DNA from: Acanthamoeba castellanii str. Neff
Lineage: Eukaryota > Discosea > Longamoebia > Acanthamoebidae
DNA length: 64,000 bases
Assembly: GCF_000313135.1 (NCBI RefSeq)
Contig: NW_004457592.1
Coordinates: 159,099-223,098, forward strand
Direction of reading: 5' to 3'
Positions 1 through 25,405 of this stretch are shown piece after piece. The position numbers and the translations under genes are program-made. A model generated the notes under the pieces. The model ran no database searches. It worked only from the letters and a program-made list of their open reading frames with translations, and had not been told where the DNA came from. Positions within the stretch are counted from its first letter, which is position 1. The number at the start of each line of letters is the position of its first letter.

Positions 1-228
1 ACGCCACCGCCGACGTCTTCGTCTCCCAACTCTTCGTCGCCCACCTCCACGTCGTCGCCTCCCTCGCGCAACCCAACACATCACCCCAGCTAGCTGCCCG
101 GCACCACACAAAACCCAAAAAGAAAAATGAGAAAAACTCTACTATTCTTCCATTTTCATTTTGTCCATTTTAGGAAAAATAGCATCTTCACCGTTTTTTG
201 TTTTGTTTTATTTGGTAGGTCTTGTCTT
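1..228 (+). other. left-edge sequence, possible 3' end of an upstream gene
   Basis: The first ~120 bases are C/G-rich and exon-like, with an open frame (third base onward) reading ATADVFVSQLFVAHLHVVAS and stopping near 172. The reverse strand is also open here, so strand and coding status are uncertain. From about 120 to 228 the sequence becomes T-rich and looks like UTR or promoter of the next gene. Confidence 0.2.
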
Positions 229-1288
229 ATGGTGACTTGTGGTGTGGCACGAAGAACATGGTGCTCCCTTGCCAGCACCGCGCTGCTGCTACTCCTTGCG
301 GTGGCGGTGGCGTTGAGCGAGGCCAAGAGCTACGGCGTCAAGTCCCTCTCCAATACCTCGTGTGTCTTGCGCAGGGCATTGCAGCGTCAGAGCCCTACCT
401 CCTCGGGGATGACCGCAGCCCACTGGTGGTGGGCGCCACGGGCCTCTACTACGTGAGCGACGACGTCACGAGCAACTCCGACCCGAGCAACATCACCCTC
501 AGGTCCACCTCCACCACCCTCATAGACGGCCTCTTCTCCGACCTCGGCGATGGCTCCTTCTGGACCTTCGCCACGTCGTCGACCACCTGGTTCAGCTTTG
601 ATGTCGCCGACGTCGACCCCTCTGCGCGCATTACCCACTTGATCCCGCTGGTGCCCGACACCGACGGCGCGCTCGTGACCGACTGGCGTCGCGGCATCGT
701 GGTGCTGTCGGCCCCGCTGAACCCCAACAGCGACTACTATGAAAGCCGCCAGCCGTCGGTGTTCCTGGGCATGGGCGAACTGGTGTTCGCCGCTGCCATC
801 GACGGCCCGTCGGACGAGGCCGGCGTGTTCCTGGTCACCATCGCCACGGGCCAGGTCACGCGCATCCAGGGTCCGGCCGAGAGCAACAGCGCGTCGTGGA
901 CCACGTCGCCGCCGGCCACGCTGACCAGGAACTGGGCCAGGTGGGGCGTTATGGAGCGCAGCGCGGGGAGCGCCATCACCCTGCTGGCCGCCGGACGCAA
1001 CTTCTCGAAGAGTGGCGCGAAGGACGGCGGCATCTACCGCTACAACCTCGACGGCTCGGCCCGGGCGAGGGTGTACCGCCACTACCTGGGCGATGCGGCC
1101 ACGTTCACAGTCAACTACTGGCAGGCAAGAGCGTGCCCAGCGACATCGCTACGCTTACGCAGAGCGAGTGGGTGTTGTCGTGCGAGGCTGACCACTGGCA
1201 CGCCAGTGGGGCGGCCATCTCCACACCGTGCTATGGGTGCTTGCTTCTGTCAACCATGTGGTCCTCATTCTTTTCTTATCTCCTTTGA
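229..1288 (+). CDS. putative secreted or surface protein with signal peptide (frame interrupted)
   Basis: I do not recognise the family. The ATG at 229 opens a classic signal peptide: a basic start, then the hydrophobic core STALLLLLAVAVALSEA. The body, rich in Ser, Thr, Asp and aromatic residues (…DVTSNSDPSNITLRSTST…), is in another frame from about 383, just after a CAG, so a very short intron or an indel lies near 360-385. A second frame change near 1122-1127 gives GKSVPSDIATLTQSEWVLSC and a stop at 1288. The C-terminus is hydrophobic (CYGCLLLSTMWSSFFSYLL), which with the signal peptide would suit a GPI or tail anchor. TGTAAATAAAAC at about 1303-1314 is a plausible poly(A) signal. It converges on the Trx-PUL gene 110 bp away. 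The two frame changes may be assembly indels, unmodelled introns or real decay. Confidence 0.5.
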
Positions 1289-1398
1289 TTGCGTTGGCGG
1301 TGATGTAAATAAAACAAAAGAGAAACAGATCAGGGCTGAAGCAGACTTGTGGTGTGTTGAAATTTCTCTATTTTTTGAAGCGGGGAAGGGGTACTCAG

Positions 1399-3595
1399 TC
1401 AGTCTTCGGCGAGGAGCTGGGCCAGCTCGGAGAGGGCCAGGCCGAGCGGGGTGGCGGCGGTGGGCGCCGCGGGGAGGCCAAAGAAGGCCAGCTCGCTCTT
1501 GGCCGCGGCCTTGAGGCTGGGCTGGGCCGACACCAGCGACCCGAGGGCCAGCGCAAACCGCAGCTTGGCATCGTCTTCTGACTCCACCGCCAAACACTAC
1601 GTACCCACGCGCACGTCAGCTGTTGCGTTGCGTTGCGTGCAATGCGGTGCGTGCGGTGCATTTCATACCGAAGCGATAGTCGCCAGGGTGTGTTGGGGCT
1701 CCTCGCCGGATCCCTCCTTGTCGCACGCCGACGCTTTCACATAGCTGTTGCACGCCACCACCATGAGTACCGTGTCGCGCATGCGTGTGTGTCGTGTCGT
1801 TGGTCGTGTCGTGTCGCACACGCACGTACTTGAGGAGGAACGTGGCCACCGCGAGCCGAACCTGCTTGTTGTCGTGGGCTTTGAACTGCTTCACCAGCCC
1901 CAGGGCCTGTGCATCACCCACCCCCAAGACCAATGGTTAATTTAATGTGTGCAATTGCGGTGGCAGAAAGCGTAAGGTGGCGGGCTGACGTACGGTGACG
2001 TGGCCGGCCAGGAGCTTGCGGGTGGAGCGGTGGTAGAAGCAGTTGGCCAGGAAGCGCACGCCCATGAGAACGCCGCCCAGGCCCGAGCCGCTGCCGTCGG
2101 CCAGCAGCCCCAGCACTCGCTCCATGCTACCGCCGCTGCCCGCCGCCATGCGGGCGTAGTGCTCGGCCGCCGACTCGATCAGCACCACCCGACGCAGGAT
2201 GTCCAGCACTTGGATGACAACACACACACACAACACACACAACACACACACGACATCGTCAGCCATCGACCGCGCATGCGTGAAGAATCTGAAGGAATGT
2301 ACGGGGGAATGCGGAGGAGGCGGGCCACGAGGCGAGAAGGCGGTCGAGAAGCGCGAGGCCCGCTTCGGGAACCACAGTGCCTGTAGGGTGGGTGGTCAGT
2401 GCGTGCGGCACGCACGCGCGGGGTCGAGCCAAACACGAACCAAAGTAGCGCGCGTTCTGGGTGAGCGTGAAGAGCGACTTGAGCTGCGCGAGGGTGGTTA
2501 TACCCGTCATGTGGCCCTCCTGCGCCATTCAAGCCACCTAAACAACGTGAGTACGTAGTGTGTGTGTGTGTGTGTCTGTGTGTCGTGTGTGTGGCGAAGA
2601 TGATTATGGAGGCGAACCTTGCCGAGAAGCTGCCCATTGAACTGGAGGATTTTGGTCCACACCGAATCGATGTTGCGCTCGCCTTCAAAGATGGCATACA
2701 AGTCCTGCCCGTCGTCGCGGCCACCCCACAGTCAGCTCCCACGACACCGCACACGCACCACCGCACACGCACACACATGTGTGGTGACAGTGGCTGTTGT
2801 GTAAATACGCACCGGTGGGAAGGACTTGAATCGCTTCGTGACGACGCCGGGGGCGGTCGAAGGTCCCGCCTCGCCCGCGTGGAGGCTCACCAGCCTCTCG
2901 AGCTCGGCTGCGTTCGCGCCCTGCGCCCCCCACCCAACCACCACCACCACGCCGACGACGAAGTTTCGCGAGTGAATGCGAGTAGGACGACGATGATGGC
3001 AACGATTGGAGGAGAAGGCTGATTACCCGCAGTTCTTGCACGAGCGCTACGTTCTTGTAGAACTTTAAGAAAGAACGAAGACGACGATTGGAATGGCGAC
3101 GACGACGATTGACGAAGAAGGAGAGTTCAGTGTACGGTGGTACGTGTGCGATGGCGAGTGTGGTGGTGGCGCGTGTGCGTGTGCGTGTGCGTGTGCGGTG
3201 GTACCTGGAAGGTGGGCATGGCGGTGACTCCGCACGCCGAGCTGATGCCCTGCCACGAGCGGTGTGATGTCAACAAACTGCACGCACGGCCGCACGCACA
3301 CGAGCAGTGGTGGTGGTGGGTACCGAGTTGCGGTCGACGTCGACCTTGAGGAAGACGGCAGCGGAGGCGTACTCGCGGCTGAGGCGCTCGAACACGGGCG
3401 CCACCACCCGACACGGCCCACACCACACGGCGTGGAAGTCGACCACCACCTGCGTACAGGTTTGTCATTGATTTAGAGATGGAAATGTATCCAGCGCAAT
3501 CAAAAACAGAGAGGTACGAGGCGATCGCCAGCAGTCTCAAGGAGCAGGCGCCACTCCTCCTCGCCCTCCACCACGGTGATCGTCTCCTCGTCCAT
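1399..3595 (-). CDS. thioredoxin-PUL domain protein
   Basis: At least eight exons. After [15 protein letters not shown] (start at 3595) comes a thioredoxin fold with the intact redox motif WCGPC (about 3400), the strand [10 protein letters not shown], the cis-Pro loop [11 protein letters not shown] (about 3215) and the closing segment [20 protein letters not shown]. The C-terminal half is an armadillo-like PUL domain: [71 protein letters not shown] and [13 protein letters not shown] match the helical repeats of PLAA/Ufd3/Lub1. In that family PUL binds Cdc48/p97, so a redox-active p97/ubiquitin cofactor is the natural inference. Thioredoxin-PUL fusions are known in other eukaryotes, sometimes with a PPPDE peptidase domain, which is absent here. 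The start is 110 bp from the divergent gene at 3706. Confidence 0.85.
1794..1809 (+). repeat. dispersed intron 16-mer, copy 1
   Basis: GTGTCGTTGGTCGTGT, exact, inside an intron of the Trx-PUL gene (antisense to that gene). Same word at 17335, 28575, 46205 and 53391. Confidence 0.9.
2748..2770 (+). repeat. dispersed intron 23-mer, copy A
   Basis: A 23-base word beginning CGCACACGCACCACC and ending GCACACGC, in a Trx-PUL intron. Exact copies lie at 11688-11710 and 23444-23466; a 21-base partial copy lies at 57456-57476. Confidence 0.9.
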
Positions 3596-3705
3596 CTTAA
3601 ACAGGAAAGAAAAAGGAAATAAATCAAATATAAAAAGAAATTCACAATTTTTTGAACGGGACATGTTGTGTAGCGCGCAGAACAAAGAAGAAGGAAGAGC
3701 TGGCA
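3596..3705. promoter_or_regulatory. shared 110-bp divergent promoter
   Basis: The region lies between the ATG of the Trx-PUL gene (minus) and the ATG at 3706 (plus). It is A/T-rich in its left half (AAATCAAATATAAAAAG around 3620) compared with the flanking exons. It must hold both start regions, so co-regulation is likely. No specific factor site is recognised. Confidence 0.5.
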
Positions 3706-4429
3706 ATGGAAGAAGAAGGCAACACCAGTAGCAACCAAAGGAAGCACAACAATAGAACCAGGGGTGAGAACACCGTCCCTCTGGAAGAGCTTGCAACCGC
3801 CATTGTGCAGGAGCTGGCCGCAAGTACGTCCTACTCGCCCGCCTCACTCCTCGAAAGGTGTGCTTATCGTACAAGACGAACCCCACTACTTGTTCAGACG
3901 GGCACATGGAGCTAAAGGACCTTCTGAAGGCGCTCAACATCAACAGCAGACGCGCTTACGAACTGCTAAACGGTGCGCCCCTCGGTGTTGACGTACTAAA
4001 CAGAGCTTCGTCGTCTGACACGACCAGCTGCTGTTGTTGTGTGCTTGCGCCACCAACCAGTCTTGTCGGCCGTGCCCAACGAACGCCCTATGCTGCAGAG
4101 AGTGAAGTACCCCCAACACTCCGAGCTCGTCTTCCTCGATGGCGAGCCGCTCCACCTGCCCAATATCGCCCTTCTGCCCAACAGCCTGGAGGTACCCCCA
4201 CCACCCTTCGATGGCGGACTTCATTACTCTCCTCTTTCTCATCCTTCCTCTTTCTTGCTTACCGTTCGCGTAGAGGGAGCTGCACGAGCTCCACCAGCTG
4301 CTGGGCTACGTGGCCACGGTGCCGCAGCGAGAGCGTAGTGGTGCGCCCGAGATGAAGAAGGCCCGCAACGACCCGCAGCCTGAACACCCAACGACGCTCG
4401 AGGAGCTGGCGAAGGCGAAGGAGGAGTGA
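3706..4429 (+). CDS. small unknown acidic/helical protein
   Basis: Four exons join in phase to roughly 150 residues: MEEEGNTSSNQRKHNN…, VPLEELATAIVQELAA, NGHMELKDLLKALNINS…AYELLN, VLSAVPNERPMLQRVKYP…GEPLHLPNIALLPNSLE, and a charged end …TTLEELAKAKEE (stop 4427-4429). The third intron region contains GTACTAAAC, close to a TACTAAC branch site. I do not recognise the family; no signal peptide, membrane segment or catalytic motif is visible. An upstream in-frame start at 3652 (MNGTCCVARR…) is possible. I prefer 3706 because 3652 falls in the A/T-rich promoter-like stretch. It shares a 110-bp start region with the Trx-PUL gene and converges on the SAM gene 98 bp away. Confidence 0.6.
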
Positions 4430-4527
4430 CAATGATCATGATGGTGACGGTATCTTGGAGGTGTATGTACAGTGCTGAAGAAAAAGAGAAGAAGAAGAAG
4501 AACAGACCTGGTGTCAGTCATCGCACC

Positions 4528-7500
4528 TCACTCGGCCGACGTCTTGATGTTGAGCTGATGCGGGTTGAAGTGGTACGGGGTGGCGCGGACTGGCCGCCGC
4601 TGGACGACGTCGAGCGCCGCGCTGTGCAATTCGAGGCGCTGCCGGAACTCCTCCACCTCCCGGTCGAGCTGCTCCTCTAGCGCCGGGTCCAACACCTCCG
4701 CCACCACAACGTCCACGGCCTTCGACGTCTTGTTCCTCTTCTTCGTTGATGGCGCCGCTCTTGCCGTCGTGCTCGGAGCCGTAGTACTCTTGCTGGTAGC
4801 CGACTGCTTGTTCTTCTTGGCCGCAGTTGTCGGCGGCGGCGGCGGCGGCTTGGTCTTGGGCGACTTCTTGATGAAGCTTTCTTGAGGGGCAAAGGCGCTT
4901 CATCGATCATCGCTGGCTGCGTCGGCGGCGGCTTGCCCGCGTTGCCCATCGTCGTTGCCTCTGCCTTCGCCTTCTGTGCAGGCTTGGCCTCGCCCGTGGC
5001 TGCAGTCGGGGGAGGTGGCGCGCAGTGAGGTGGTGCGGCCGCTGCACGTGGCAACCTGGTGGCGGCGACAGCCTTTCGTCGCGCGCGGTGTCTGGCCTTC
5101 TTCGCAGCCCTTGCCGACGTCGTCGTGCAGCACGCCGAGTGTTCGGTGGCCGACAGCGACGAAGACGACGGCGGAGAGTAGTTGAAGGACGACGACGAGA
5201 AGGTCGAGGCTGCCGACGACCCGGCCATGCCAAATAAGGGAGAGGATGGAAAGCTGTGGAGGGGGCTTCGGGTGAAGGCGTTGGTGCCGGCAGAGTGCGT
5301 GGATGGGCCGAAGTGTTTCGACGCCGCTAGGGGCAAGTCGGCCCCATTGATGAACGACAGCAGCTCCGCCACCGATCGCGTGTCCTCTGTACAGAGGGTA
5401 AGTGTGAAAGGTAAGAAGGCACGAGAAGGCGATGTCGATGGTTCGCACGCATGGTGGTGGGTACGGCAAAGCGGGCATACATACCGGGGCGGTGGCCATC
5501 GACCGAAGACGGGTGCCCCCGCTCACCGAGCTTGGGGCGGGAGACGCTGGAGTGGTGCATCGGCGTCTCCTTGTGGTCGATCTGGTACAGGTTCGGCTCA
5601 TTCGAGTAGAAGAGACGCAGAGCTACGATACACACGCGCCACGCTTAGCCACCACACACAGAACACATGGCTATGTGTAGTAGTATCGTGAAGTAAGTAC
5701 CGCCGGAGGGCAGCTCAGCTTTAATCTTCTTCACAGCTGCGAGGATGGCGCTTCGGTCTGCCTCGTCGGTGAACCCCATCTTTAGTACAGACGGCAGAAG
5801 AAGAAAGAAAGAAGAGGCGGCCCGTGGTCAGATCCGGTCATGGTAGAGAATGGGGCGGCGGCAGGATTATACCTCAAGCAGGCCGCTGTCGTCGAGCAGG
5901 GGAAGGCTGTCGATGGAGATGTTGTGCTTGGCAAACACATCGGCATATTTCTGCAGGACCAGATCCTGCAGCAGCGACTCTGACGCAGAATAGTAGAACT
6001 GCACCTCCTTCATTTCACGGACCTGTTGTCATTTCACAAGCATGTTGGGTGAGCGTGAACGACGATTGCGGATTCAAAGAGCAAAGAGCAGGGCATCTCC
6101 CCACGTACGGCAATCTTCATCTTCTCTCGAGCGGCGTTGCAGTCGATCAAGCGATTGATGGTGTGATCGTTGAGGATGGTGAGCGACTCGATGAAGTCCA
6201 CCATGAGGTTCTTGGAGAAGACCAGCGCGTACTCGTCCAGCTCCAGGTCTCTCAGCCAATAGGCCATGGCTATTAGAAAAGCGGTGTTGTTTTCGCAAGT
6301 CAGCACCATGACCGAACCACCGTAGCAACTGACCCACCATGTACAGTTCTGGTTACCTTTGACAGCGTACGAGGGTGAGAACTCGAGGGACTGGAGGGCG
6401 GAGAGGAGCTCCTTGTCTTGATTGGTGACCCCCATCTCGTCGATGATGAAGAAGTTGACCAGCGGCAGGGCGTAGAACGGCACCTCATATCTAGAGGGAG
6501 TAGACATCGAGGAGACAAGCAGGTCAGGCAGGCCCCCGAGAGACGCGCGCCACGTATAACCCCCCCCCACCGCAAGGGGCGGACGCAAAGGGCCACCGGT
6601 CACAGGTGCGAGATACGAACCGCGCAAACTGGTAGGCGTATCGTTCCAGGCCACTCCATTGCAGCCAGGCGAAGGTCGCTGCCGGCGAGAAGAAGGGGTC
6701 GTTAGCGCCACAGGCCACTCATGACACGCGCAAGGATGAGAGCGGTACCTTCGGCAGAGGAGAACTCGCGGTAGTACTTGGTGGCGTGGAAGAAGTGGGC
6801 AGTGCGGGTAGGGTTGAGGCCCATATGCACAAAGTCGCTTTCCCTGAGCACCGCGATCGTGCGTAGGCCCACCCTGTGCTTCATGAACGCCTCTTCGTAC
6901 ACGCCCAACCCCAGGTATCGCAGCCATAGGCCCACGACTGCGGCCAGCCACCAGCACCAATATGTGTGCCAAAAAGACATTAGCAAGTTCGGCATCTGGT
7001 CCGTTTAGCTAATGACGAGGAGAAAGAGTGCGTACACTGAAACTCGTTGAGGTCCTGCAGCCGCTTGACTGCGCGCATAATAGCGTTGCGATCGTTCGCC
7101 GAGGCGACTCCGATGTCCTCGAGGATGTTTGGGCGGAGGTAGGGCAACACCAAAAAGTCGTCCACGCCGCTGCGTTCGAACGCCGCTCGGTGGTGGTCCA
7201 TGCCCAGACTCGCCAGCCATTCATCGACAGCTGTACGCGTATGAGGCAGCAGAACACGTCCAAGCGAATAGTGAGTTTCCTGAGCTGCTTGAACGTTGTG
7301 CGTGAATGTATGTGAACGACACCGCTGTACCTTTGCCGCTGCCGTAGGGCTTTAGGAGGTAGTGCCTGTGCGGGGCAGCCACAAGCACGCGGCCCGGGCT
7401 GAGTGCGCGCTTGACGGATGTGGAGGGCTGGAGCTGCCGTGATCGCTGCTCGTCAGCGAAGCAGCGCGCATCCTGACCCAGGTGACGCAGCAACTTGCTG

Positions 7501-8077
7501 AGTGGCTCTGTGTTGCGAGCAGCAGTGGAGGTCAGCACTCGATGAAAGCGAAGAACTGAGGTGAGAAAACGAACCAGCAGGCTCGAACTCAAACATGAGA
7601 CCCTCCACTTCGCAGCAAACCGTGGAGCCCAGGTCCAGACAGTAGGCCACAAGCATGGTGTTGGTGTCCTCACCTGAGTCAGCCAGCGGTTAGTGCGTTA
7701 GTACGTACGTAAAGCAGCAGCAAGGAATGGCAAAAGGATGCAGATTTTAAAGTAATATTGAAGATGGAAGTACCGCTGGCGCAGGTAGGTAGAGAACGAA
7801 GAGAGGCAGGGGTTCGTTTATGTGTATTGGTCTCCCGCTCGCGATCCAGCACGAGCTCGTCCAGAGACGAGGAGAGAAGGAGGGGCAGACCCACTTCCTT
7901 CCTGTGGTCGAGGCTGAGGCGCGACCAGTCGGCAAGCGTCCCTATCCAATGGTCATCGAGCAATTGAGTAGCACGTTCGATTTCATCTTCGTTTCGCGCG
8001 AGTCGTTTGCCGATCTCATGCACAAGCGCCCTTATGGGTTCTTCCTCTGATTCAATTTTGTTCCCATTTGCTTTCAT
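4528..8077 (-). CDS. five-SAM-domain scaffold protein
   Basis: The start at 8077 gives MKANGNKIESEEEPIRAL… followed by a helical region (ALVHEIGKRLARNEDEIERA) and a loosely conserved segment (SKLLRHLGQDARCFADEQRS). Five tandem sterile alpha motif domains follow: WLASLGMDHHRAAFERSGV… (about 7210-7040); LWLRYLGLGVYEEAFMKH… (about 6945-6755); WLQWSGLERYAYQFA…IIDEMGV (about 6665-6365); WLRDLELDEYALVFSKNLMV… (about 6260-6120); and LVLQKYADVFAKHNISIDSL…MGFTDEADRSAILAAVKKI (about 5980-5705). The tail is low-complexity (Ser, Ala, Pro, Lys) and ends …NPHQLNIKTSAE. SAM domains usually polymerise or bind other SAM domains or RNA, so a scaffold is inferred; no kinase, GAP or other catalytic domain is seen. 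One frame change without splice sites sits between 4870 and 4903 and is probably an assembly indel. Confidence 0.8.
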
Positions 8078-8244
8078 CTCTTCCTGGATGACGTTTTGGC
8101 GCTACTTTGGGGAGTACATTTCTTCACAACTTTTCCCTTTTCTTCCGTGAACTATTCTTGTTTTTGTTTTTTCACAGGAACTTCTCTATTTTTTCCCTGT
8201 CTACAACATAAAAAATAACAAATAGTTAAAACAATCCCCAGTCG

Positions 8245-10731
8245 TCCTTTTTCTTCTCCAAGTTGATGCATTGAGCAGACTAGCTGTGTGTTTCACTTTG
8301 TGGAGGTAGTGGGCCATGTTAACCATTGTAGCTTTGCTGTCAGGTTCACCAGAAAAAGTGTAATACATTCTCCAGCTGCTGAGGACAAGCCTTAACTTAT
8401 GGTAATTTGAAATGAGAGGTCACAAGTGACTGGAGCACAGGTCTCATCTGGTTGTTGAGATCCAGTGAAACATCTGCACACAAGAGGGAGTTGTAGGAGA
8501 CAGAGGTGTGTGGGTCAGTGGTCAAGTGGTAGGACCCATCCATTGCTTCATCCAGTGAGACTGATGGAACCATTGATGGGCTAATCCAATGGCTCCAGGT
8601 CTGAGAGAAGCTCAGACTGAGCATGTATGTACAGATAACCCAGCTGAATGGGTCACTAGTGAGCTGCTCTGGAGGTGGCCTATTGAAAAGAGAGACAAGA
8701 TCCTGGTAGGATTTCTTCATGGCCTGGGCATTGTTGAGCTCAGTGAGGGCAGAGAGGCTATCCTTGAGGGTGGTGGTATCAAGCTGAGCTAAGAGAAGAG
8801 GAAGGGGAGAGTCAAAGGGACAGATGTTGAGGAAGGAGTAGGGACCCATCCACAGAGAGGCAGAGGGATGGTAGTCCTTAGTGAACATCTACACATCATT
8901 TTCATAGGCAGGAGAAGCAGAAGACATGAGGCCTGGAGTTGTTATGAACACCATGGATATAGGGATCCATCCAGGATTTGATAGACCAGCACTCAAGAAG
9001 GAATATAGGCTCAGGGTGAAGGTGGGGTGTGGAATACCAGTCCTGCAGACCTTGCTTGACAGCCTTGACAGTAAGGACCTGTGGATTATACTTCATGCCT
9101 GAGGATATTCTATTGTGTACATGATAGGTAAGGGGAGTAATACCATGTTGGTGTACATGGTTATCCTTGCCCTTGCCTGTGCTGTCATGTTGGTGGAGGT
9201 CCTTCCAGTTTGAAGAGTATCCATGATGGAGAAGTTGGCCATTTTGTTCTCAGAGATTCCATAAGCAAGCATGAATGCCTGCCTGCAAACTCACTACTGG
9301 TGTAGAGTGAGAGGAAGCTATCTCCAATGAGCTGTAGTATTAAGAAAGTTGAGAATTATGGGGATATCAAATAGAAGTGTGGGACAAACCAGGTATCACT
9401 CATCTATCAACTCCTACATCAACTGCTCACCCATGGAGGCATCAGAACACCAGAAGAAGATGATTTCTAAAGTGATTTTTTGGAAACTAGCACATTTAAG
9501 GTGAGTGTTGGTGGGCAAATTGGGTATGCCTTTGAGGTGCTTCTGGTACCTGGAATGACAATAAAGGCATAATCTGAAGTACATGGTGCAGTGTTTTGAC
9601 CCCAGTGTCTTTGGCCAGGCTTTTGAGAAGGTAATTATTAGGTCAAAGGTGTTTATGGGCATTACAGGGCAGCAAACTCATGGTCTAAGATCTGCTCAGC
9701 TCCTGCTGTCTGCAACTCTCTAGATTGTTGGGTGCATGCATGGAGGTAGCTGAGCTTGTGATCCTTGCACACCCTCACCCAAGCATGAGACATTTTGGCC
9801 CATGCACTGAGTGGGACATGAAAGAGGTGGTTGCCTGTTGGCACAACTGGTTTGGATGTGGCTGTTGAACTAGAGCCTGTGGTGTGTGGTGGTGGTGTAG
9901 GGAAGCCAACAGAGTTGCAAGCAGTGATGGTGGCCAAGATGTGCTGGTCACAGACAAGAAGGTGGGTCACTTGCATGGAGTTCTGCTGTCTGAAGTGCCA
10001 CACATTCATGACAGCAACTGCAAGGTGCATGACCTTGAAGACAACATCATTGCAGATGCACAATCAAGGAAGCAGCAAGCTCATGGTGGGTTGGGGTGTG
10101 TAGGTGGGGGGTACCTGGAACAACTACCAGACTCCTACCATAGCTGTCAAGGTCATCCTTGCATCACCAAATGCAGAATTTTTGCAACACACTTTCATGG
10201 AAGAACCTGGGCAGGCACTTGCCAAAGTTGCACACTGGACCAACATAGGACTGAAGCCACTTCTTTGTTGACAGCTGTGTTGATTGGTACTGGCTGGGAA
10301 GCTTCTCAACAGCTGAAGGGTATGTGTGGTGGCAGGTGGATGGTGCAGGCATTGGGGGCCAGGTGGAGGTGGAGGGAGGATGTGGCACAATGCCCCTGTC
10401 TTTATTGTTACTGAAACAGTGCTTGTGTTTGCATACATGCTCTGCCACCAAACAAGTGCAAAAGTGACCCACCTGGAAATCAGACTTAAATGGAAGCAAT
10501 TTTTGTCTGGTTTTGTCCAGCCAAAACTGCCCAGTGTGACTAGGAGGAATGACAGCACACCAACTTCAGGTTACACTGTAGTCATCCTGATCCATTTTTC
10601 AAAGCCCTGGTATCAGGGTACTAGTCACACTTGGCACTATTAAACCAATAGTTATGCCCACATTGAGCTATTTATTATCATGTATTGCTTTAGTTTTTAT
10701 TTGTTGATTTTTTTTTATGATGTAGTGGTGG
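8245..10731. other. 2.49-kb block completely free of CpG
   Basis: Line-by-line reading finds no CG dinucleotide between the CG at 8243-8244 and the one at 10732-10733. Neighbouring exons and introns have many CGs per 100 bases. The block is rich in TG and CA, the deamination products of CG, and still has moderate G+C. No splice-like gene model, terminal inverted repeat or target-site duplication is visible. Known biology: zero CpG with TG/CA excess is the scar of long-term cytosine methylation, as on silenced transposons and integrated viral DNA. What the segment originally was cannot be told from here. Confidence 0.85.
8397..8888 (-). pseudogene. ORF remnant in the CpG-free block (163 codons)
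   Basis: An uninterrupted frame starts MFTKDYHPSASLWMGPYSF and contains NNAQAMKKSYQDLVSLFNRP and DLNNQMRPVLQSLVTSHFKLP. It looks protein-like but matches no family I know. Related minus-strand remnants may be at about 8902-9096, 9662-10063 (…KMSHAWVRVCKDHKLSYLH…) and 10164-10499, in different frames. The Trp-, Cys-, His- and Gln-rich wording fits loss of CGN arginine codons by deamination. It is most likely debris of one mobile or foreign element. A + strand frame at 9884-10414 overlaps it and cannot be excluded. Confidence 0.3.
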
Positions 10732-10818
10732 CGGAGGGTACCCAGAAGGAATGTTGTTGATGGGAAGCCATCGCCGCTGTTCGGCACAAGACGCCTCGCA
10801 AGCTGCACAACTGCCCGG

Positions 10819-12972
10819 CTAGTAGGGGTTGTAGCGCGGGGCATCTCGTGGCGCCAGAGCCTTGCCGCCCGCCGGCGATCCATAGTAGCCTGCCACGCGC
10901 ACCACAACGTCAGCGACGGCGACGGGTGGTCTTAAGACCGTGTTGATAACGAAGAAGGTGTACCTGTGTAGTCCGGCGGCGGCGCTGGCGGATAGGCGTA
11001 GGCGGGACCGGCTCTGGATTGGTCGTAGGCGCCGTAGGCGCCGTAGTACGGGTCAGCACCGGGCGCTGCACTGGTGGCCGCGCCCGCGTAGTAGTTGTAC
11101 TGGTGCTGTTGGCTGTAGTTTGTCGCCGCCGTCGCATCAGCGCCCGTGCCAGCAGGAGCGACGGGGGTCGTGCCGTCGCCGGCACCAGCGGCGGGGGCGG
11201 GGGCAGGCGTCGGAGTCGCCGCGGGTGCCGGATGATAGCCCGGCTGGCTATAGGCAGTCGCCGGGTCGCCGTAGCTGTAGGCCGCTGGCGGTGGCGGTGG
11301 CGCATAGGCCGGCTGGTGGTGGCCGTAGGCCTGGGCCTGGTAGTGCGGTGGAGGTGGTGGGTAGTGGTGCTGGTGCGGCGGTGGCACACCGTAGCCGCCG
11401 GCGGCGCCATAGTAGGGCGGAGGCGGTGGAGGCGGGCCGCCGTAGCCGCCGCGGTAACCACCACCGCGTCCGCGATAAGGTCCGCCGCGATGAGGCGGAC
11501 CCCCGCGTCCTCGATAGCCGCCCCGATAGCCACCACCGGGTGCCCAGCGCCCGCTGCCGTCATCGTAGTCCTCCCAACCGCCGCCGCCGTAGTNNNNNNN
11601 NNNNNNNNNNNNNNTTGAGCTGCACGAGTCAACGCACAAAACAAAACAAAACACACGAGGAGATGAGTCGTGGAACGCACACGCAAACGCACACGCACCA
11701 CCGCACACGCACACGACATGTGAGCGAGATATGAGTGGAGCGGTACATTCGCCCTCGAGGGTGGCGTTCTGGCAGCGCTGCATGGCGGCTTCGGCCTGCT
11801 GCCGGGTGGCAAAGTGGACGAAGGCGTGGCCGAGCACGGCCCGTGTGGTGACGTCGAGGGGGATGACCACCTTCTCGCAGCCGTCGCCGAAGAAGGCCTT
11901 CATGGCTTCGGCGTTGGTCGTGGGCGACACGCCGCGCACGAACAGCGACTTGACGCGCGCGAGCATGTCCTCCTCCTGCGTGCGCGGCTCGGCCATGTGG
12001 ACGTTGAGGTAGAGCCCGAACACGGGCGTTGACTGGAGCAGCCGCATGCCCTGCACGGCGCACTTGTGGTCCTTGAAGGTGGCCCACCCGTAGCCCTTCG
12101 ACTCGCCCTCGAGGGTCGTGCACAGCTTGAACTTGGTCACCTCATACGTCTACCTCCGCCGCCGACGCCGGTCAGCTTCAGCTTCAGCCACACGACACAC
12201 GCACTCACACTCACACACGACACACGACACACACGCGGTGGTGAAGAGGGGAATGGTCGAACCGTGGTGGCCTCCTGGAGCGCGAGCCGGACGTCGTCTT
12301 CGGAGAGGCCGCGCGGGATGTTGCCCACGTAGAGCACGTTCTTGGGATCGGCTCGCACCACCTTCACCGTTTGTCTGTGTGTTCATCGCACGAACGGTTG
12401 GAGGAGGAGGAGCGCAGAGAGTTGGCTCGGCTGGGGGACGAGAGCGAAAGCGAAAGCGAGAGAGAACGAAAAGCGGAGGGAGAACGTACACCCGGGCCGA
12501 CACGGCATCTCGAAACGATGGCAGGACGGCCATGTCGAGAGCGGCGTGGACCGCGTCCAACGTCGCGAACTTTACAAACCCAAACCCTGCAGAATATTCA
12601 AATAAAAATATAAATAATAGATGAATAAATAATCAACAAGATCAAGGTTAAATTGGGAGGAGAAGAATGAAGACAGGGGGTGTCCAGACCTTTGGTTTCG
12701 CCGGTGAATTTGTTCTTCACGACGAGAGCATCTGTGACCTGTCCCGCCGATGAGAAGGCATCTTTGAGCTCCTGATCTGTTACGCCTCGCGCGATGTCGG
12801 ACACGAAGATGCCGTACTCGAGAGGCGGCTCGTCCCCCACGTCGTATTGGACCCTTTGCTGCTGGTGGTGGTGCTGGTGCTGGAAGCCGTCGCGATTGCC
12901 ACCTCCGCCGGTGCCATTGCCGGCACTGTGGCCACCATTGGGGTCAGACGGCCAAGGAGCGTTCTCTTGCAT
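10819..12972 (-). CDS. three-RRM hnRNP R/Q-like RNA-binding protein
   Basis: It starts MQENAPWPSDPNGGH (12972) and has a His/Gln-rich leader. RRM1 is GIFVSDIARGVTDQELKDAF…GFVKFATLDAVHAALDM. RRM2 is NVLYVGNIPRGLSEDDVRLAL…GYGWATFKDHKCAVQGMRLL. RRM3 is SLFVRGVSPTTNAEAMKAFF…LGHAFVHFATRQQAEAAM. The C-terminus is an RGG/YGG region (GGGYRGGYRGRGG) followed by a long Pro/Tyr/Ala-rich tail, ending in a separate last exon GYYGSPAGGKALAPRD…YNPY with its stop at 10819-10821. Three RRMs plus an RG-rich tail is the layout of hnRNP R, SYNCRIP and RBM47-type proteins, which act in mRNA stability, splicing and transport. A 21-base N run (11594-11614) falls at the junction of the RRM3 intron and the RGG exon, so a few residues are missing. 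It diverges from CNOT4 367 bp upstream. Confidence 0.85.
11594..11614. other. assembly gap (21 N)
   Basis: Unknown bases at the upstream edge of the RGG-encoding exon of the hnRNP-like gene. The flanking CCGCCG triplets suggest collapsed or unsequenced GC-rich repeat. Confidence 0.99.
11688..11710 (+). repeat. dispersed intron 23-mer, copy B
   Basis: Exact copy of the word at 2748-2770, in an hnRNP intron. Both copies are followed within a few bases by ACATGTG, extending the similarity. Confidence 0.9.
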
Positions 12973-13339
12973 CTGACTTCTTCAACGGCACCGTTGTGCT
13001 GCCACCTCTTGAGCACCACCTCTCCAACGATAGATAGATGGCCAGCAATGGCCAATCTTGCTTTTTGCTGATTAATCGAATTGGAGAGAAATAGAAGGAA
13101 AATGGTGATATGTCGACAGGAAAACACTTTTTTTGTTGGTTTTTGAATTCTCCGCAAACGCAGCGAAGTCGCGACCCCACAGACGCGAGCCTGCCAGCAG
13201 CGCATCACATCCCATCTCCCAGCCAACGCTTCCCCGCCCCAAAACCATCCAACACAACTCGAACCAACAGCCGCGGCCCACACTTACTCAGTTTTGCCCA
13301 CCGAAGCGACCCCAACAATTAATTATCCACGCAACAATA
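12973..13339. promoter_or_regulatory. divergent start region, hnRNP / CNOT4
   Basis: A stretch of 367 bp between the hnRNP ATG (minus) and the CNOT4 ATG (plus). It is T-rich in the middle (13125-13145) with A/C-rich sequence before the CNOT4 ATG. It serves both genes; no recognised factor site. Confidence 0.4.
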
Positions 13340-22229: not shown

Positions 22230-24716
22230 ATGCGTGCTTTCTTCGGCAGCACCTCTCCATCGGCGGCGCGTTGTGCCGTGGGCCAGGTACCAACAATGCT
22301 GCCCATTTTTGTTAATTTCAACAAATCATTTGCACTCATCCCAAAGGGAATTTCTAATGACTGGCTTTCATCCTCTTAACACAAGGGATCCATTCGTTCT
22401 TTCTCACTGGCCGCCAATGGTACCTGGTCCTTCGGTACGAGCAACCTTTCATTTATTAATTTCTCAATGCCATGCACCATTTTGTTTGCCATTGCGTCGC
22501 AAGATGCCTTCCGCTTGCCATCGTTCACACCGCTATTTATCTCTTTATTTTTAATCCTCGATTCCAGGAAATTAGCAACATCTCGCATGCTCACACCATT
22601 TCCTTTCCATTCTTTTGGGCCTCACAAGCCGGCCGCACCGCTGTGCTGAGCCGCAACCTGGCCGCGAGAAACTACTCGACCGCCACCTCCACCACCACCA
22701 CCGAGGAGGCCGCCCCGGCAGCTGCGGTCGCCACCCCGGCCGCCGAGGCCGTGGAGAAGCCCAAGGTCGAGGAGCCGAAGCCCGCCACGCCCAAGGTCGA
22801 GAAAAAAGGTCTCCCCTTCCGACCATGGCATCCATGGAATGTGATCGCTAACATGTGTCGTGTGTCGTGTGCGTGTTGTGTGCGCATCAGGTAATATCTC
22901 GCGGGTGGCGGCCGAGCAGGTGATCGCCGTGATGGGCGGCCAGTGGGGCGATGAGGGCAAGGGCAAGCTGGTCGACGTCCTCGGCGCCAACTTTGACATC
23001 ATCGCACGCTGCGCCGGCGGCTCCAACGCCGGTATACCAGGCCCCTTACTCTTACGCTCCTGTGACCACCGACACTCACTGTTGTGACGCTGTGTGTGTG
23101 CCGTGTGTGCCGTGTGTTGTGTGTGGTCCGCAGGACACACTGTGATCGTGGAGGGGAAGAAGTACGCGTTCCATCTGCTGCCGTCGGGCATCCTGCACGA
23201 GCGCCCCGTGTGCCTGATCGGCAACGGCACGGTGGTGCACGTGCCCACGCTCCTCAAGGAGCTCACGTCGCTCGATGAGAAGGGCGTCAACTACAAGGGA
23301 CGCGTCAAGCTCTCCGACCGCGCCCACGTCGTGTTCGACTTCCACCAGCAGATCGACGCCTTCCTCGAAGACGCCGCCAAGAAGGTTCCCTCCCCCCCAT
23401 CGCACCTCGCCTTTGCCACCGAACGAGGGCTGACACGCGTCACCGCACACGCACCACCGCACACGCATGACCGCACGCGGCAGGGCAACAAGGATGGGTC
23501 GATTGGCACGACACGCAAGGGCATCGGACCGGCGTACGGGGCCAAGATCGGTCGGGTGGGCATTCGCGTGGGCGACCTGCGCTTCCCCGACACGCTGCCG
23601 GAGAAGCTGACCAAGCTCGTCGAGTACTACCAGCGCTCGTTCCCGCTCGAGGTCAACCTCAACCACGAGATCGAGGCCTACAAGGCCTTCGCCCACAAGC
23701 TTCAGGTGCGCCGGTGTGTGTGGTGTGCGCGGTGGATTTAGGATGGAGTTGACTGACGACGTACGCACACGACACGACACGCAGCCGATGATCGTGGACA
23801 GCGTGCACTACATCAACAAAGCCTACGGCGAGGGCAAGCGCATCATGGTGGAGGGCGCCAATGCCACCATGCTCGACATCGACTTTGGCACGTGGCCCTA
23901 CGTCACCTCCTCCAACGCCTCCATCGGCGGCGCCGTCACCGGTACACCGACCCCTCCCATCACACGCGTGCGGTCGTGTCGTGTCGTGTTGTGTTGGTTT
24001 TGCTCAATGCGTGCGGCGTGGAAACAGGTCTGGGTCTGGCGCCGAGCAAGATCGACGGCGTGATCGGTATCGTGAAGGCCTACACCACGCGCGTGGGCGC
24101 GGGTCCGTTCCCGACGGAGCTCAAGGACGACCTGGGCGAGAGCATCCGCAAAATCGGCCACGAGTTCGGCACCACCACCGGCCGGCCCCGTCGATGCGGT
24201 TGGCTCGACGCCTTTGCCATAAAGTACGCAACCGCCGCACAACCGCACACAACCACACACGCACTCACACTCTTCTGATGACAGATATGCGCACATGATC
24301 AACAACTTCACGCTGTTGAACCTGACCAAGCTGGACGTGCTGTCCGACCTTGATGAGATCAAGATCGCCACGTCGTACAAGTACAACGGAGGTACCACAC
24401 ACCACACACCACACACCACACACCACACACCACACACCACACACCACACACCACACACCACACACCACACACCACACACCACACACCACACACCACACAC
24501 CACACACCACACACCACACACCACACACCACACACCACACACCACACACCACACACCACACACCACACACCACACACCACACACCACACACCACACACCA
24601 CACACCACACACCACACACCACACACCACACACCACACACCACACACCACACACCACACACCACACACCACACACCACACACCACACACCACACACCACA
24701 CACCACACACACACAC

Positions 24717-24787
<71 letters not shown>

Positions 24788-25405
24788 ACACACCACACAC
24801 CACACACCACACACCACACACCACACACCACACACCACACACCACACACATCACACCACACACCACACACCACACACATCACACACGTACTCTCGGACAC
24901 GCACTGATGATTTTCTTTTCTTTTCTTCGTCGCTTTTTTCCCTCTCTTTTGTAGAGCACCTCGCATCGTATCCGTCCAACCTGGAGATCCTGGACCAGGT
25001 CGAGGTCGAGTACGAGACGCTGCCCGGCTGGAAGAAGGACGTCTCTGGCGTCAGGTTCGCTCTTCTCCCCCTCTCCCTCCTGCCTCCCTGCCTTGGCTTA
25101 CCAACAACACCCGACACAACACACACAACACAACACGCGCGTACAAACGTACACTTGCAGGTACTTTGAGGATCTTCCCGCGGAGGCCCGCAAGTACGTC
25201 GAGCGAGTGGAGCAGCTCGTGGGCTGCCCGATCGGTTGGGTACGTCCGCTGAACGCGCACCATCACCACCGATCCCTGCACAATGATGTTGATGCCGATG
25301 ATGATGTGTTGACGCGCGTCCCAATGGTGGTGGTGATGTGGCTTTGTGCCACAGGTGGGCGTGGGACCAGGTCGCGAGGCCATGGCCATCCGGAAGCCCA
25401 AGTAG
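22230..25405 (+). CDS. ADSS: adenylosuccinate synthetase, N-terminal presequence
   Basis: It makes adenylosuccinate from IMP, aspartate and GTP. The start ATG at 22230 and two small exons (22230-22286, 22386-22419) join in phase to the exon at 22629. They give [31 protein letters not shown] and [18 protein letters not shown], a textbook-looking mitochondrial presequence, then an Ala/Glu/Pro linker. The mature enzyme begins [16 protein letters not shown], with the GDEGKGK phosphate loop. It continues with [54 protein letters not shown] (IMP/switch region), [20 protein letters not shown] and [18 protein letters not shown], ending AMAIRKPK. It is full length for the family. One intron holds a 0.5-kb minisatellite. 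Confidence 0.96.
23444..23466 (+). repeat. dispersed intron 23-mer, copy C
   Basis: Exact copy of the word at 2748 and 11688, in an ADSS intron. Confidence 0.9.
24395..24895. repeat. (ACCACAC)n minisatellite with (CA)n core
   Basis: Roughly 45 head-to-tail ACCACAC heptamers, then a (CA)n run at about 24725-24786, then about 12 more heptamers with a few CACATCACA variants. It starts three bases inside the intron whose donor is GGAG|GTACCA, and the intron ends at TTTTGTAG before AGCACCTCGCATC. The six-frame translations through it are repeat artefacts. Confidence 0.97.

Follow-up and report, generated by a model that had tools for sequence, protein, structure and literature searches.

How does a stretch of DNA come to lose the dinucleotide CG altogether when the DNA around it is full of it? 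The window analysed here, a stretch of 64,000 nucleotides from the amoebozoan Acanthamoeba castellanii Neff (G000:C75:159099-223098 of the 38.4-Mb assembly), raises this question in an extreme form. A script count gives 8146, 8243 and 10732 as successive CG positions, so that none lies across 8244-10731. The 2,525-bp element interval at 8201-10725 holds a single CG, against 131.7 +/- 8.6 expected (2,000 shuffles, minimum 103). The original prediction, zero CpG at 8245..10731 with over a hundred expected, is thereby upheld, as are its further points that TG and CA are in excess and that the neighbours are CpG-rich: observed/expected ratios (o/e) are 1.71 for CA and 1.47 for TG in the tract and 1.21 for each in the remainder of the window, the DNA around the tract has a CpG o/e near 1, and the open reading frame (ORF) on the right flank is CpG-normal. 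TA stands at 0.62 in the tract and 0.53 in the remainder. The two edges, predicted to be sharp within about 100 bp, behave differently. The right one is abrupt, with six CGs in 10732-10800, but the left one is softer, spreading over about 150 bp of AT-rich DNA (~8101-8243) that has only the two CGs at 8146 and 8243. Elsewhere in the window the longest stretches lacking CG measure 499 bp (24387-24886) and 135 bp; the former coincides with a (CCACACA)n-type array of ~500 bp at 24395-24884, which is a simple repeat and no decayed element.

The CpG-free tract as an element copy

Judged by its sequence, the tract is an old, internally deleted and dead copy of a dispersed mobile element that carries a DUF7869 protein. 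Its parts and flanks, in window coordinates, are as follows.

7679..8077, minus strand: left-flank ORF with its start ~70-125 bp away from the element; nothing in Pfam at E<=0.01
8201..8231, plus strand: left arm of a weak candidate terminal inverted repeat, its 31 nt pairing with 10695-10725 at 77% complementarity
8208..8309, plus strand: left-end block with a relative at C47:16120-16214 (79.6% identity, 108 columns)
8244..10731, no strand: CpG-free tract, from the count of CG positions and the shuffle expectation
8390..9405, minus strand: main homology to the dispersed element, whose gene is on the minus strand, from matches in its own genome
8394-8432, 8426-8562, 8551-9099, 9100-9340 and 9339-9405, minus strand: homology blocks, from the layout of the alignments
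8427..9340, no strand: four probable internal deletion junctions, at ~8430, 8555, 9099/9100 and 9339
8902..9249, minus strand: DUF7869 (transposase-like) remnant, C-terminal part only (Pfam PF25273)
9419..9446, minus strand: 28-bp piece, inverted relative to other copies, matching L031 9129-9102
9665..10063, minus strand: diverged protein remnant, common to the element copy on C248 (L045), by tblastn
10695..10725, minus strand: weak candidate terminal inverted repeat, right arm, partner of 8201..8231
10932..12140, minus strand: host ORF on the right flank, CpG-normal, encoding an RNA recognition motif (Pfam RRM_1, E 3.5e-11)

The DUF7869 remnant scores 22.5 bits (E 9.3e-5), below the 26-bit cut-off of PF25273, and a search of the whole genome with this model returns the window copy at C75:168006-168209, likewise under the cut-off, while 43 of its 47 matches lie above it, some of which belong to a single copy. 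In structure models the family takes on a fold like that of integrases and transposases, and DDE/RNase H-fold transposases and retroviral integrases may be counted among the known systems closest to it; by sequence, no solved structure is meaningfully related (4 chains, E 0.23-0.9), and no mention of DUF7869 was found in the literature. At the four junctions relatives hold 0.1-0.9 kb of extra sequence (3.75 kb in one case). Could these be introns missing from a retrocopy? The borders lack CT...AC on the plus strand, and repeats of ~5 bp are visible by eye at two junctions (ATGAC at 8430, TCCAG at 8555; little or none at 9099 and 9339), so this reading was rejected; more probably the window copy has suffered deletions.

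Towards the left end, the well-aligned core shows three CGs of the C47 relative as TG, CA and TG in the window. A weaker local alignment over 8149-8396 accounts for 11 CGs of the relative, of which six are TG or CA in the window, one is CT and four fall in gaps; conversely, the window CG at 8243 is TG in the relative. The candidate inverted repeat has 24 matches in 31 positions, a score that, in a post hoc comparison, 0.3% of 300 random segments attain and none of 300 shuffled ends. Its end motif occurs in no other fetched element locus, the alignment to C47 may extend past the left arm to ~8149, and by eye other copies have edges unlike these. In the right half of the tract, the protein remnant at 9665..10063 matches L045 at 36% identity over 115 aa (E 3e-14; tblastn against the fetched element loci only), and no second DNA copy of this half was found in the genome by a search that passes over simple words and those of very high frequency. 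The element sits beyond the 3' end of the right-flank ORF, with no Rfam match in window positions 7000-12000 and no tRNA in 6000-13000.

The element has at least 70 matches in its own genome, the window copy counted, and 27 of the 29 other match loci (overlapping loci included) have a CpG o/e of 0.22 or less. The original prediction, which took the segment for a foreign or repeated one and pointed to CpG-poor relatives and CpG-containing copies as things to look for, fares well here, since copies with CpGs exist too: the left-end relative on C47 and, on C200, the locus L055. A sister copy on C154 has an open frame closest to the annotated protein ACA1_377230. An origin of the tract as foreign DNA poor in CpG from the start, as contamination or through misassembly would fit a composition sharply unlike the flanks, but it is very improbable given this many relatives in the same genome, CpG-normal DNA beyond most island edges that the fetched stretches reach, and the two features of the copies described below: CG in L055 where its closest sisters read TG or CA, and TG/CA alternates that point to a CG ancestor.

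Several of the fetched loci show features of their own. A 5S rRNA gene at about 210 kb on C124 (L037 973-1105; RF00001, 56.9 bits) ends a 9-kb CpG-poor island and by eye retains its CpGs, perhaps reflecting an insertion-site preference. A CpG-poor island-edge stretch on C56 (L046 1743-1960), 78% identical to C93:20657-20901, resembles by eye a segment of a histidine kinase, and duplicated host genes may therefore be targets too; on C3 an island edge (L041, ~8000-8170) crosses what looks by eye like a PAS/histidine-kinase coding stretch. The DUF7869 match at G000:C202:10196-10321 lies inside a frame reported as open over 3,540 aa, one TAG included, an unusual length to which the 197 N among the 901 bases around that match (L059) may contribute.

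Direction, independence and speed of the loss

Comparison of the copies within this one element family, divided into a main subfamily and that of L055, identifies what the CpGs became. Both TG and CA occur across copies at 43 of 997 dinucleotide sites (depth of at least 6, segments below 78% identity left out), and other transition pairs do so at 0-3. A site that is TG in one copy and CA in another points to an ancestral CG, mutated on opposite strands in the two, and thus to copies that lost their CpGs independently. With sites dropped where fewer than 70% of copies read CG, TG or CA, a filter used for the window and independence counts, the window copy covers 39 inferred ancestral CpG sites, and none is still CG. 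A longer reference of 6,995 positions yields 369 inferred CpG sites after removal of those with less than 75% of copies reading CG, TG or CA or with a depth below 5. On this reference the control pairs are not nil, which counts against the explanation favoured below: the unfiltered counts are 369 for TG/CA, 56 for AC/GT, 27 for AT/GC and at most 8 for others. The same filter leaves 42 AC/GT sites; of eight inspected, several lie in alternating GT/AT runs. CpG retention is lowest after C (1.5%) or before G (2.4%) and highest after G (9.5%) or before C (11.3%), a context preference that is symmetric between the strands.

How quickly were the CpGs lost? The most informative locus is the following.

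G000:C200:716600-717500 (L055): DUF7869 copy keeping 17 CpGs, a candidate not-yet-mutated copy

Seven sister copies are 0.2-0.9% from L055. They are seven of 14 other sequences; C94, L058 and L059 (1.6-2.6%), L052 and L054 (26-27%) and the short partial C176 and C154 were left out. Between them they have lost 75 of 86 covered CpGs, with 23 other differences in 4,219 sites, three of these C>T or G>A. The per-cytosine rate ratio is 665 (Poisson interval 228-3,225, a G+C content of 46% being taken). Among ten close copies of the 14 (L052, L054, C176 and C154 dropped), TG and CA are discordant at 17 sites, where L055 reads CG at 16 and TG at one; 16 of its 17 CpGs have thus been lost in both directions. 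When the distant L052 and L054 are added (26-27% divergence), the discordant sites rise to 27, of which 17 are CG in L055 and 10 are not. The CpG o/e of L055 is just 0.35, so its ancestor was CpG-poor already.

The main subfamily tells of a similar disparity. The copies C154 and C207a (alignments of less than 400 columns left out) have TG opposite CA at 66 sites, although of 2,519 other sites only 19 distinguish them. In the 16 closest of 227 alignments, those with less than 1.25% other differences, there are 391 TG/CA opposites, 92 sites with CG against a decayed form and 19 with CG in both, beside 150 other differences in 17,896 sites. The latter comprise 62 transitions and 88 transversions, so that outside CpG-type sites there is no transition excess. 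If half of the doubly decayed sites are assumed to be opposite, about 7% of CpGs were kept per lineage during 0.42% other change, a ratio of ~600-760 that is approximate because the alignments overlap. Together these comparisons suggest that the repeats lose CG at a rate hundreds of times that of change at other letters.

The main rival explanation is a passive route, in which dense CpG methylation is followed by spontaneous deamination of 5-methylcytosine and poor T:G repair, each site decaying independently. The excess of CpG mutation in mammals and plants is roughly tenfold, and a ratio of several hundred is well above it; weak repair and slow division could, by reasoning, raise the ratio. 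What had been proposed for the tract was the end state of methylation and deamination. Loss from CpG to TpG or CpA stands after the comparison of copies. Slow attrition is unlikely, since copies only 0.2-1.2% apart elsewhere have separately lost ~90% of their CpGs and since, in part of the copies of one family, the changes are strand-coherent.

Strand coherence and the routes to CpG loss

Under independent decay of each CpG, opposite sites in a pair of copies should point either way equally often. In some pairs they are far from doing so. TG/CA orientation is 65:1 between C154 and C207a over 2.7 kb (3652-6344 against 10108-7364 in the fetched stretches), 30:0 between C124b and C47 and 51:3 between C207a and C210, the three skews spanning 0.7-2.7 kb. 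A first scan of orientation took the first 45 alignments left after dropping those with fewer than 12 opposite sites or at least 3% other difference. Of the 227 alignments, which overlap and are not independent, 22 have 25 or more opposite sites and less than 3% other difference; in 12 of these 1:1 is rejected at p<0.01, and 10 show no skew at that level. Across the main-subfamily copies, adjacent sites agree in 1,622 of 2,529 cases, against a null of 1,317.5 +/- 22.7 with a maximum of 1,383 (200 permutations of copies within sites). Residual autocorrelation is 0.355 for sites less than 25 bp apart, 0.079 at distances of 1.5-3 kb and 0.012 at longer ones (null sd at most 0.022). Five copies, C124a, C207a, C229, C47 and C94, contain same-strand runs 24-38 sites long, where permutation maxima are 13-18.

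This coherence is present in part of the data and is no universal feature. Nine of the 16 main-subfamily copies reach z >=3 (C124a, C207a, C124b, C154, C93, C47, C229, C94 and C56); the other seven, the window copy among them, stay below 3. The window copy by itself shows no coherence (14 of 31 adjacent sites agree, null 14.9), and neither do ten copies of the L055 subfamily, either overall (50 of 101 agree, null 50.0) or at sites within 30 bp (34 of 60 against 30.8, P 0.22). Passive deamination with weak repair could account for these incoherent copies, whose random orientation speaks for it; it would not be expected to yield strand-pure pairs over 0.7-2.7 kb or autocorrelation at the kilobase scale, and we regard it as a doubtful account of the whole. 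Where pairs of the C154/C207a type agree, the direction of change is mixed, which fits an older mixed phase followed by strand-pure loss of the remaining CpGs. Separate ~90% loss in near-identical copies, combined with strand coherence in some of them, suggests a fast, episodic hypermutation.

Could the coherent strand be that of a transposition intermediate? Deamination of a single-stranded transposition or repair intermediate, with each insertion fixed from one deaminated strand, would give strand-pure differences between insertions, and C207a does have a copy-wide bias (217 CA against 84 TG). This route is nonetheless improbable, as C124a and C154 switch strand repeatedly within a few kb, the L055 subfamily is incoherent, and neither PF08210 (APOBEC_N) nor PF18778 (NAD1) finds an AID/APOBEC-like gene at E<=1. 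Other deaminases are possible; with two Pfam models giving no AID/APOBEC-like match, none is named here.

The reading that we prefer, at a probability of roughly 0.6, is a methylation-guided, RIP-like CpG hypermutation of repeats operating outside fungi, with the tract as a DUF7869 element copy stripped in this way. On this model a new element copy with its CpGs would insert, as the CpG-retaining sister suggests; it would be recognised as repeated or foreign, and its CpGs would be methylated by a DNMT1/DNMT3 system. An enzymatic step would then convert CpG cytosines to T efficiently, often on one strand and over hundreds of bases to ~3 kb per episode, as the strand coherence of part of the copies would indicate. 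Replication would fix TG or CA, leaving a copy nearly CpG-free and otherwise barely changed, as the comparison of copies shows, and the dead copy would gather deletions and ordinary substitutions, as the window copy appears to have done. A more specific version, an active, repeat-directed and strand-processive CpG mutator in A. castellanii that can strip a new copy of nearly all its CpGs in one or a few single-strand episodes as a RIP-like defence, by way of a DNMT1/3-type enzyme or a 5-methylcytosine deaminase, is held more tentatively, at a little short of even odds. For the right half of the tract the search of the present genome gives no further DNA copy, a result that does not speak for a homology requirement and counts against the preferred explanation.

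Methylation and comparison with known systems

The methylation that this hypermutation would use has a known basis in the strain. In the accessible text of the studies concerned, Neff encodes DNMT1 and DNMT3 (PMC12344493), carries CpG methylation (5mC) on transposons, a point that also favours the passive route, and on viral inserts in general (PMC12344493, PMC12210455), and has a published methylome and nanopore reads (PMC12344493, PMC12210455). The original prediction had also pointed to a DNMT gene, and DNMT1-type domains do lie together on C155, as domain matches: PF12047 at 79762-79911 and 81340-81474, and PF00145 at 85035-85310 and 85976-86104, all above the Pfam cut-off. Further matches are to PF00145 on C215, C248 and C94 and to PF12047 on C9 and C148.

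No report of CpG hypermutation in Acanthamoeba, or of RIP in Amoebozoa, was found in a mostly open-access literature, preprints excluded, and RIP is described as fungal-specific in the available parts of three papers (PMC2621366, PMC4352252, PMC4014442). If the preferred reading is true and an amoebozoan has a strand-coherent process of this kind at CpG, the silencing of repeats by mutation would have arisen more than once or would predate fungi. A quick killing, beyond silencing, of methylated transposons and perhaps of viral inserts in Acanthamoeba would also be accounted for. The idea is directly testable: Neff grows axenically, and the CpG-retaining L055 and its near-identical mutated sisters have been identified.

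One of the closest parallels is fungal RIP in Neurospora and other Pezizomycotina, which likewise changes C to T in repeated DNA at an extreme rate. In Acanthamoeba, C:G to T:A transitions in repeated DNA are present, the focus on repeats resting on CpG-normal flanks in a comparison of repeated loci alone. Single-strand clusters are a hallmark of RIP: in Neurospora 91.9% of the clusters consist of C>T changes alone or of G>A changes alone, from which the authors, in the text available, infer one strand per round (PMC7296669). The amoeba matches this in the nine coherent main-subfamily copies but not in the window copy or the L055 subfamily. RIP of the Pezizomycotina type acts at CpA, whereas the change here is at CpG and the host is an amoebozoan; a CpA preference is absent, both by the transitions outside CpG-type sites and by the TA ratio of the tract. 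RIP is also tied to the sexual cycle, to a homologous partner sequence and to an enzyme, RID/DNMT4 or DIM-2. As far as the accessible text goes, RID/DNMT4 is reported from fungi only and apparently confined to them (PMC12344493), which weighs against the preferred reading.

A second parallel is the CpG-type, RIP-like mutation of basidiomycete transposons, in Microbotryum and in Rhizoctonia AG8; these hosts too are fungi. Basidiomycetes that lack RID and have a DNMT1-RFD (Masc2-like) enzyme show a CpG-to-TpG signature in transposons, ascribed in the available text to deamination of methyl-cytosine (PMC4352252), and AG8 shows a CpG-biased hypermutation in the corresponding part of its report (PMC4014442). 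The accessible portions of these two sources contain no mention of 'strand' (PMC4352252, PMC4014442). The contexts differ: Microbotryum favours TpCpG in the part available (PMC2621366), whereas Acanthamoeba loses CCG/CGG most completely and keeps GCG/CGC most. For Amoebidium, the accessible text of PMC11244446 has no mention of 'deaminat', 'cpg depletion' or 'hypermutation'. The accessible main texts of the Acanthamoeba studies make no statement on CpG loss at these elements, and 'hypermut', 'repeat-induced' and 'TpG' are absent from them (PMC12344493, PMC12210455); they treat methylation and silencing, with 5mC as mutagenic in general. It is nevertheless the CpG methylation of transposons and endogenous giant viruses described there, within the text available, that shares strain, target class and sequence context with the loss reported here (PMC12344493, PMC12210455).
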